From: an uncultured Hyphomicrobiales bacterium
Lineage (GTDB): Bacteria; Pseudomonadota; Alphaproteobacteria; Rhizobiales; Beijerinckiaceae
Direction: 5' to 3'
Assembly (NCBI GenBank): GCA_903900975.1
Contig: CAIUPE010000128.1
Coordinates: 1 to 64,000 of the forward strand
DNA length: 64,000 nt
Position numbers and translations under genes: made by a program. Of this stretch, positions 881 through 3,097 are shown in pieces. Below the pieces are notes generated by a model. It made no database searches, had not been told where the DNA came from, and saw only the letters and a program-made list of their open reading frames with translations. The stretch's first letter is position 1; each line of letters starts with the position of its first letter.

Positions 881-919
881 AAAGAAAACGGCCCCAGCGC
901 AAAGATCGCGCTGGTGCCG
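881..919 (-). terminator. Rho-independent-type terminator after the structured RNA
   Basis: On the minus strand a stem of 11 pairs with one mismatch (916-919 with 889-892, then 908-914 with 894-900) has a seven-base loop. It is followed by TTTTCTTTTT. It ends the candidate RNA and stands just upstream of the 77-residue gene at 629-862, a placement typical of an attenuator or of the 3' end of an sRNA. Confidence 0.6.
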
Positions 920-1095
920 GGGTGCTAAGAAAACCACTCAAACATGGCCGCGACGCTTTTAGCCTTGCGACCTGGACATAACGCCGCCACCCCGACGTAA
1001 ATGCGTCAGGGCAGTTTGGTGACGGCAGATGCACTGCCGGTTTGAGCGGAGGTTTCTTAGGCCCCAAGCCATGCGGATGCATGACCTTAGGGAAA
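881..1095 (-). ncRNA. Candidate multi-branched structured RNA (class unknown)
   Basis: Read on the minus strand, this gene-free stretch folds into a consistent set of helices. A long-range stem pairs 1040-1060 with 925-943: a 10-bp helix including one G-U pair, a small internal loop, then 7 bp. It encloses three local hairpins: 1023-1028 with 1034-1039 (6 bp), 990-997 with 1004-1011 (8 bp) and 946-951 with 967-972 (6 bp, one G-U). A further hairpin, 1062-1068 with 1086-1092, sits at the 5' side and competes with the outer stem for the same CCCC/GGGG tract. The wobble pairs are allowed only if the minus strand is transcribed. It is not an obvious tmRNA, RNase P, SRP or tRNA. It may be a riboswitch or leader for the 77-residue gene, or a free sRNA. 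Confidence 0.5.
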
Positions 1096-2558: not shown

Positions 2559-3097
2559 TTCTCCTCAAGCCTGCAATGCGCACATAGACCTTGCAGTTCA
2601 ATGACACGCGCATGCGGGGTGAAATGGTGGTCTTCGGTAATGGCGGCCAAAGCCCGCGTTAACGGCTCGGAGGTAACCTCGTCAACGCCGCTGCATTTCT
2701 CGCAAATCATGAACACGACGAGATCGCCGCGGGCATGATGAAACGGACAGGCAATAAACGCATTGCGGCTTGCAAGCCGATGCACAAAGCCTTCGCCGAT
2801 TAAAAAATCCATCGCGCGATAGACCGTAACGGGCGCCAGTTTTTTAATGCCCGCCGCATTTAGGCTGTCGATCACATCATAGGCGCTCATCGGGTGATGC
2901 GTCGCATAAAGCGTCTGAAGCACCTGTTTACGAATGGGCGTCAGGCGTAAGCCGCGCTCCGCACAGTGTTTTTCGGCAGCGGCCAGCGCTTCAGGCGCCC
3001 GCGCAGCATGCGCCTCGCCATGCGCGCACGCCTCACCAACCGCGTGGTCGTGCGGGTGCGAATGGGGTGCGTGCAATGTGGAGTGCGAAACGGCCAT
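2555..3097 (-). CDS. Fur-family transcriptional regulator, Zur-like
   Basis: A 180-residue Fur-family metalloregulator. A histidine-rich N-terminal tail (residues 4-30, with [10 protein letters not shown]) precedes the winged helix (about 48-105, [10 protein letters not shown] and [10 protein letters not shown]) and the dimerisation/metal domain. The structural zinc site is built from CEKC (132, 135) and CAHC (172, 175). The histidine-rich tail and sequence style suggest zinc sensing (Zur) rather than iron sensing, but that is inference. The gene overlaps ispG by four bases. No zinc uptake genes are in the window, and coupling to an Fe-S isoprenoid enzyme is a notable context. Confidence 0.85.

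Follow-up and report, generated by a model that had tools for sequence, protein, structure and literature searches.

A structured RNA with hypervariable arms ahead of a small-protein gene in Alphaproteobacteria: relation to sRNA-Xcc1 and a probable C4-type antisense leader

Introduction

The phage P4 CI RNA is a leader-encoded antisense RNA that is processed by RNase P and acts on its own leader. For C4 antisense RNA, PMC5320573 describes processing by RNase P and a b' loop that overlaps part of the ribosome-binding sites, and it also reports a large group of C4-like sRNAs in A. baumannii. The c4 RNA is listed for Proteobacteria and phages in the corresponding entry of Weinberg 2010 (PMC2864571). 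A further described RNA, sRNA-Xcc1 (Rfam RF02221), was found by RACE to be 88 nt long and was once thought to be possibly specific to X. campestris pv. campestris, as stated in excerpts of PMC2996969. Seven homologues, five of them clustered in an island, are given for Xylella Temecula1 in the relevant section of PMC12189769, and a passage of PMC12444791 describes the most widespread Xanthomonas integron cassette as symE with sRNA-Xcc1 upstream. Both sRNA-Xcc1 and C4 antisense RNA are named in that section of PMC12189769, as separate entries, and it is the one paper in the literature searched that has both; in the same literature, C4 antisense RNA was not found named together with Alphaproteobacteria.

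The window analysed here is a 64,000-nucleotide stretch from an uncultured Hyphomicrobiales bacterium (contig CAIUPE010000128.1, positions 1 to 64,000). An initial annotation, made from the letters alone, had placed at 881–1095 on the minus strand a candidate structured RNA that fits no recognised class and could be a riboswitch, an attenuator or an independent sRNA, ahead of an orphan 77-residue gene. Judged from the comparisons presented below, this RNA family is new, real and widespread, yet related to known kinds, and is no formal member of RF01695 or RF02221, although the sequence evidence has it working as they do. The evidence favours an antisense leader, an RNA that would serve the small gene as leader and also be an sRNA precursor, and we consider the locus to be probably of the C4 (RNase P) type.

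Results

Fold and parts of the locus

On the minus strand, the stretch 870–1095 folds to −111.9 kcal/mol (z −7.3), which none of 200 shuffles equalled. The plus strand of the same stretch gave z −4.9, likewise with no shuffle out of 200 as good, and the minus strand is consequently favoured rather than proven. The strongly folded minus-strand RNA at 881–1095 thus agrees with what the initial annotation had described. Its long-range closing stem, CTAAGAAACCTCCGCTCAAAC at 1040–1060 (−) with a partner at 925–943, is exact on both sides, and the exact pattern of its arms occurs in the window's own genome at these two places only. The proposed multi-branched core is supported by the computed fold and by covariation in the copies, and the hairpin said to compete for a GGGG tract is present and matches a second, C4-like fold (996–988 with 924–916). 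The terminator suggested at about 881 fared less uniformly: a hairpin with U-tract appears in the computed fold, but is not among the calls of a strict terminator scan. A consensus promoter scan of 600–1320 reported no promoter. The gene ispG (GcpE) lies upstream of the RNA on the same strand, the 77-aa gene downstream. The parts are as follows.

1095–1123 (−): promoter-like TTGGAT-17-TATTAT, inside a TTTGYGTTTTGG..GATAAT block common to the genus copies (alignment of 29 copies; absent from the consensus scan)
1067–1086 (−): 5' hairpin GGTCATG..CATGGCT (helix 1 of alignment A4: 91.0% of cells paired, 4 of 6 pairs doubly changed)
1062–1066 (−): outer UGGGG strand, whose partner in the precursor fold is the CCCC strand at the 3' end (folds, covariation)
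1053–1060 (−): arm a1 (CUAAGAAA), complement of a' (helix 2, 95.2% paired; own-versus-swapped arm test)
1040–1047 (−): hypervariable arm b1 (GCUCAAAC), complement of b' (helix 4: 99.1% of cells paired, 6 of 6 pairs doubly changed)
1023–1039 (−): hairpin CGGCAG-UGCAU-CUGCCG (helix 5, 98.6% of cells paired)
987–1014 (−): precursor-fold hairpin burying the GUCGGGG strand (helix 6: 90.2% paired, 0 pairs doubly changed)
988–996 (−): GUCGGGGUG, 5' strand of the C4-like closing (acceptor-like) stem and predicted 5' end of the processed RNA (A/U match in 75 of 76)
950–987 (−): P2-like hairpin with conserved GGCGUUAUGUCCAGG..CUAAAAGCG (fold, covariation)
932–949 (−): P3-like hairpin whose loop contains b' (GUUUGA), from folding the cut RNA
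925–931 (−): a' (UUCUUAG), which stays unpaired in the C4-like fold, likewise from folding the cut RNA
916–924 (−): CACCCCGGC, shared 3' strand with possible partners at 1062–1066, at 988–996 or, through CACCC, at the Shine-Dalgarno (SD) sequence 869–873
877–919 (−): hairpin GGCACCAGCGC..GCGCTGGGGCC with U-tract, probable intrinsic terminator (fold and sequence)
869–873 (−): SD-like GGGUG, complement of CACCC at 920–924 (sequence; association of GGGTG with CACC ends)
629–862 (−): 77-aa gene, whose product is predicted to have two helices and matches no family at E 0.001

In the Rfam search of the window two tRNAs alone reached the cut-off and the RNA itself stayed below every cut-off; tRNAs alone were likewise found at gathering score in 20 loci. 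The statement that it fits no RNA class thus holds at the level of cut-offs, but not of kinship, as the RNA is a distant full-length relative of sRNA-Xcc1 with the layout of C4. Neither Rfam nor ARAGORN supports 6S, SRP, tmRNA or RNase P RNA, and these readings were dropped. A near-perfect palindrome with arms of about 25 bp occupies 1230–1286, between ispG and the RNA; it draws microRNA-type Rfam rows, which were set aside.

Precursor fold and hypervariable arms

Pairs were counted on a model-based alignment (A4), because in some copies the closing stem was wrongly placed by MAFFT (alignment A1). A4 has 37 rows, namely 36 copies and one weak opposite-strand match (L004, 30.1 bits), and is fitted to the structure of the covariance model R1, which was itself made from 13 of the same copies. 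On this alignment 94.2% of the cells pair in the precursor fold, and 23 of its 54 pairs carry changes on both sides; doubly changed cells number 189, against 54.4 in shuffles, and sliding the partners by 1–3 columns lowers pairing to 33–45%. In the inner arm helix (b1/b') 99.1% of the cells pair and every one of the six pairs is doubly changed.

Within a copy, the predicted binding of the 5' arm to the 3' arm averages −20.1 kcal/mol, compared with −8.9 kcal/mol for swapped arms, and the own partner was the best in 32 of 36 copies. Between copies the b1 arm shows an identity of 43% versus 44% by chance (from column composition) in 46 copy pairs with cores at least 93% identical. Of the 36 b1 arms 34 are distinct; the two that recur (L008/L035 and L009/L012) do so in different genomes, with no recurrence within a genome. 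As far as aligned copies can tell, the stem is different in nearly every copy though complementary within each copy. A retron- or DGR-like origin of the variable stem was considered and dropped in view of the C4 layout.

Distribution

R1 was built from 13 copies, and the window's own genome and genus are included in all its counts. In the window's genus it matched 40 places, which are spread over 11 of 12 genomes with as many as 14 in one of them, and outside the genus level it was found in 30 of 347 genomes (18 of 134 genera) of the order, 27 of 385 genomes (26 of 277 genera) of the class and 11 of 349 genomes (6 of 185 genera) of a phylum sample. A DNA similarity search retrieved the RNA from 9 of 199 genomes of the family (own included), all of them of the window's genus. 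A DNA pattern search returned 36 stretches from GTDB contigs labelled Alphaproteobacteria, Hyphomicrobiales, Rhizobiales or Beijerinckiaceae, with one from Sphingomonadaceae; together with the window these amount to 36 distinct cores. The genus DNA pattern had 0 matches in viral contigs, and two DNA queries found no match in phage records.

Plasmids carry relatives in number: L165 matched 277 plasmid records by blastn with the gene start included in the query and 200 with the RNA alone, of which 140 are from Agrobacterium or Rhizobium and 163 are conjugative; plasmids of R. etli are among the carriers. In four plasmid records the L165-type RNA precedes a DUF2285 gene (K. vulgare), an HTH gene (R. 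leguminosarum) and, in the other two, unnamed genes. On a Ketogulonicigenium plasmid (L208) the RNA has a divergent HTH gene on one side and a DUF2285 gene on the other, an arrangement that we take to resemble qseC–qseM of conjugative elements. By analogy, it suggests RNA control of conjugation anti-activators. A term search of PMC10359603 brought up no discussion of the qseM leader.

Several local arrangements were recorded. In L148, L149 and L150 two or three RNA copies stand in tandem within about 1.3 kb, and in L148 and L149 a CACCAGAG..CTCTGGTG hairpin is itself repeated. L151–L154 are four copies in 110 kb of one chromosome-sized contig, each ahead of a paralogous 111–117-aa protein, and L181 holds two divergent, back-to-back copies at 2486–2658 (−) and 2763–2927 (+), one of them above the RF02221 cut-off. 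At about 1168–1202 in the window, and 5' of many genus copies, lies a motif like CTAAAATCC..AACTTAARRTTGYATAA, roughly 100 nt before the RNA promoter; in many paralogue pairs similarity starts near this motif and stops near the stop codon of the small ORF, as if the stretch from motif to stop moved as one unit. The cassettes of several genus copies are flanked by REP-like palindromes of the CCGTCATTGCGAGCGAA type.

The 77-residue protein

Of 60 genomes, 11 (the window's own among them) have matches to the 77-aa protein, as many as 8 in one genome, and all 11 belong to the window's genus. A member of this small-protein family follows 28 of the 36 genus copies, other small ORFs follow 7, and after one no ORF was recognised. 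The gene called an orphan thus remains without a family in Pfam and PHROG (no match at E 0.001), and it has relatives within the genus, where the term does not apply. Alignment A5 contains 27 relatives; the protein set omits 8 of the 36 copies (seven without the motif, and L043 at >100 aa), and L047 was also dropped from A5. The ORF is under purifying selection (dN/dS 0.06–0.33 in 11 copy pairs), with synonymous sites saturated in the pair of the window and L002; the copy at G156:C1 has an internal stop. The AlphaFold model consists of two helices (mean pLDDT 89.5). By analogy with icd or SymE in relatives, the protein may possibly be a toxin.

A second, C4-like fold and pairing with the Shine-Dalgarno sequence

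Strand GUCGGGGUG (988–996) is able to pair with CACCCCGGC (916–924). The same pairing can be followed through the family: of the 76 sequences classified, 75 have an internal GGGG(A/U)G that fits their C(U/A)CCCC end (46 + 29) and one has a mismatch, with a Fisher p of 3.6e-20, or 1.3e-17 with the genus excluded, relatedness being ignored in both. Classification covered 76 of 102 distinct sequences and left out 26; A or U alone was admitted at both places. An RNA cut at GUCGGGG is predicted to form a closing stem and two hairpins, the second of which displays b' in its loop, while a' stays single-stranded; the C4-like closing stem appears in the predicted fold of the cut RNA for 36 of 36 genus copies. 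Covariation thus supports two mutually exclusive folds, a putative precursor and a putative C4-like form. In the intact core the precursor fold reaches −86.0 kcal/mol versus −64.1 kcal/mol for the forced C4-like fold, a difference of about 22 kcal/mol that makes a spontaneous switch improbable, so that some aid would be required.

The constant 3' strand can also match the SD sequence. GGGTG precedes a start-like codon in 18 of 60 sequences with a CACC end versus 3 of 55 with a CTCC end (p 6e-4), and GGGAG goes with CTCC ends (25 of 55 versus 6 of 60 with CACC ends, p 2e-5). The test drew on 131 sequences, 16 of which have neither end and were omitted from the Fisher tests, again with relatedness ignored. 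Sequestration of the SD sequence by the constant CACCC strand is therefore plausible in part of the copies; among the genus copies GGGTG stands ahead of a start-like codon in only 12 of 36.

The variable arms behave differently from group to group. In the window's genus the variable 3' arm was compared with 19 windows between −400 and +710 and in no case outdid swapped arms (z −1.1 to +2.8), and its comparison with the SD region (z +0.8) revealed no a2/b2 target. Other alphaproteobacteria, in a far group that omits L146, L205, genus copies and duplicates, gave a weak arm–SD signal (n = 85, z −1.8, 392/10000), and in the antirepressor group L138–L145 the 3' arm matches the SD region (n = 8, z −4.3, 0/10000). 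The constant strand may serve in place of the genus arms, which match nothing near the gene beyond the swapped level. The genus arms seem to address the RNA's own leader only, which is the weakest step of the model.

Relation to sRNA-Xcc1

RF02221 matches the window at 908–996 (−), beginning where strand GUCGGGGUG lies, with 31.4 bits against a cut-off of 53 (E 0.0019). Despite the low score we read this match as homology, because it is supported by the tests that follow. The shape of RF02221 is found in the window, with a closing stem, a pair of hairpins of which the second has a variable loop, and CACC after the stem. Among 15 distant loci of the family, 6 had between them 8 RF02221 matches at E up to 0.1, located on the family's 3' half, and 9 had none at E 0.1; two relatives exceed the cut-off (L146, 61.2 bits; L181, 56.2 bits). 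Searches with RF02221 matched 43 of 200 genomes in the phylum sample (30 above cut-off) and 28 of 210 in the class (4 above cut-off), where 16 of 62 RF02221 places share coordinates with R1 places. One 1.4-Mb genome (G624) holds thirteen RF02221-type matches.

A 5' half of the same kind, unannotated, lies upstream in all 30 RF02221 loci read. Own versus swapped arms, compared in 29 of these 30, gave z −14.1 with the own arm best in 19 of 29, and the 3' arm likewise matched the downstream SD region better than swapped arms did (z −8.9, 0/10000 permutations, own best in 10 of 29). Locus L221 may serve as an example, with leader TGCAAACCCC..ACACAAGCGG and SD region TGCAAAGGAGACACAAGCC-ATG. Profiles of RF02221-type leaders did not match the window, which was part of the database searched.

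Relation to C4 and the genes downstream

None of the 15 Rfam matches of the window at E up to 10 is to RF01695, for which 45 bits would be needed, and in the class RF01695 was found in 2 of 210 genomes. The predicted shape of the cut RNA is that of C4 as drawn by Rfam. The phage P1 record has the order a1, b1, C4 RNA (77 nt), a2, b2, icd. A profile of 19 RF02221-type leaders matches P1 at the C4 leader (E 3.2e-4), as well as all eight of L138–L145 (E 1.5e-12 to 8.2e-7). It should be considered that the similarity to P1 includes a T-rich terminator-like hairpin, which could recur by convergence.

Downstream ORFs were picked by a simple script (109, of which 98 are in alignment A6), and some picks may be wrong. 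Among the best 25 of 37 Pfam families for the 98 proteins are Rha (8), Bro-N (5), HTH_3 (5), P22_AR (3) and one each of AntA, KilA-N and SymE, as well as nucleases and outer-membrane proteins; among the best 25 of 103 PHROG families, anti-repressors and transcriptional regulators predominate.

Discussion

Proposed mechanism

Under a C4-type reading, a single transcript would start at about 1090 and run through a1/b1, a spacer, the sRNA domain with a'/b', the terminator and the small gene. In the precursor fold a1/b1 would lie on a'/b', with the GUCGGGG strand buried. In the second fold GUCGGGGUG would pair with CACCCCGGC as an acceptor-like stem, with b' in a loop and a' unpaired as in P1 C4, and RNase P could cut this form before GUCGGGG to release an sRNA of about 90 nt with a'/b' free. 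The CACCCC strand, which also matches the gene's SD sequence, could then shut translation. Free sRNA that bound a1/b1 of a new transcript would drive that transcript into the off, or processing, state. The outcome would be copy-specific negative feedback, in which the hypervariable arms act as an address that prevents crosstalk between copies.

Alternative readings

A type I-like toxin–antitoxin system, in which the small helical protein would be the toxin and the RNA ahead of it the antitoxin, with arms that diversify so that copies avoid neutralising each other, is possible though doubtful, and is compatible with a C4-type leader. RNA and a 70–80-aa gene do form a unit with up to 14 representatives per genome, the b1 arms of the 36 copies never recur within one genome, the dN/dS values of the 11 pairs are low (0.06–0.33), and genes for P1 icd (a division inhibitor), SymE or YdaS toxins occupy the same place in relatives. 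However, the 77-aa protein itself has no family match, 7 of the 36 copies precede other small ORFs and one precedes none recognised, and the ORF at G156:C1 is interrupted.

It is unlikely that the RNA is a metabolite riboswitch, in which a ligand on the conserved core would stabilise the closing stem and thereby free the SD sequence or control the terminator. Conservation of the core GGCGUNAUGUCCA..CUAAAGGC across a class, covariation of the closing stem, whose 3' strand is in some members complementary to the SD sequence, and diverse downstream genes would all suit such a switch. Yet antirepressors, HTH regulators, nucleases and toxins make up most of the downstream families listed, which share no pathway and suggest no ligand, many proteins being unmatched; b1 stands at chance identity between near-identical cores, which the stem of a riboswitch does not need; and the arm is repeated around the SD sequence in RF02221-type loci, with the layout of P1 C4.

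Quite unlikely, too, is a trans-acting sRNA directed at unrelated host mRNAs, as proposed for sRNA-Xcc1 in the literature. Terminator-like hairpins between RNA and gene, in some copies two or three in tandem, and the display of b' in the loop of the C4-like fold accord with a free sRNA, but the exact a–b target pattern (the only form searched) is confined to the locus in its own genome, and the arms differ from copy to copy. Chance structure or a DNA-level element of repeat hairpins is hardly credible: palindromic repeats are abundant around several copies, but the minus-strand z of −7.3, the many compensatory changes and the class-wide conservation argue against it.

Wider implications

The C4-type reading may tentatively be extended to an address-coded class of RNA switches on alphaproteobacterial plasmids and chromosomes, with relatives beside antirepressors of the phage type and, as published, in integrons and islands; two known corners of this class would be sRNA-Xcc1 and P1 C4. 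Its members would share a CCCC strand with three rival partners (leader, RNase P-ready stem and SD sequence) and a fast-diversifying identity stem, and in the window's genus would form a multi-copy module of RNA and small protein that addresses its own leader only. For sRNA-Xcc1, treated in the available passages as trans-acting or virulence-linked, this would supply a concrete mechanism, C4-type control of the adjacent gene, and the RF02221 model spans about half of the element. The data further suggest C4-type control beyond phage antirepressors, at plasmid DUF2285 genes, SymE-type toxins and small-protein genes on alphaproteobacterial chromosomes. The arms, at chance identity between near-identical cores and complementary within a copy, offer a clean natural case for the study of RNA specificity codes.

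Comparison with known systems

Like the phage P4 CI RNA, the RNA described here would be encoded in a leader on which it acts after RNase P processing. The A. baumannii 'Group 1' C4-like sRNAs are similar in having many chromosomal copies and a variable a' region, and their reads mostly start at an RNase P-type GGW site; unlike the RNA described here they were found through the Rfam C4 motif and are gammaproteobacterial, and the Group 1 passages of PMC5320573, the source for all these features, do not connect them with small genes. In the case of sRNA-Xcc1, the 87-nt Rfam model corresponds to the 3' half of the present family, and its loci share the 5' half, the variable arms and a downstream gene. 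They differ in the core, GAAUACAAUACCC..GGGGAAUAA in RF02221 versus GUUAUGUCCAGG..CUAAAAGCG here, and in repeating the arm around the SD sequence, which the window's genus does not. C4 of P1/P7 (RF01695, with c4-a1b1 as RF03163) has icd/ant downstream where the window has the family-less 77-aa gene, and its a2/b2 at the downstream ribosome-binding site have counterparts in the RF02221-type and antirepressor groups, not in the window's genus. The layout of a1-b1, spacer, sRNA and then gene is common to both, as is an upstream a1/b1 complementary to a'/b', and the predicted fold of the window RNA has the C4 shape throughout: closing stem, P2, P3 with the b' loop, and single-stranded a'.
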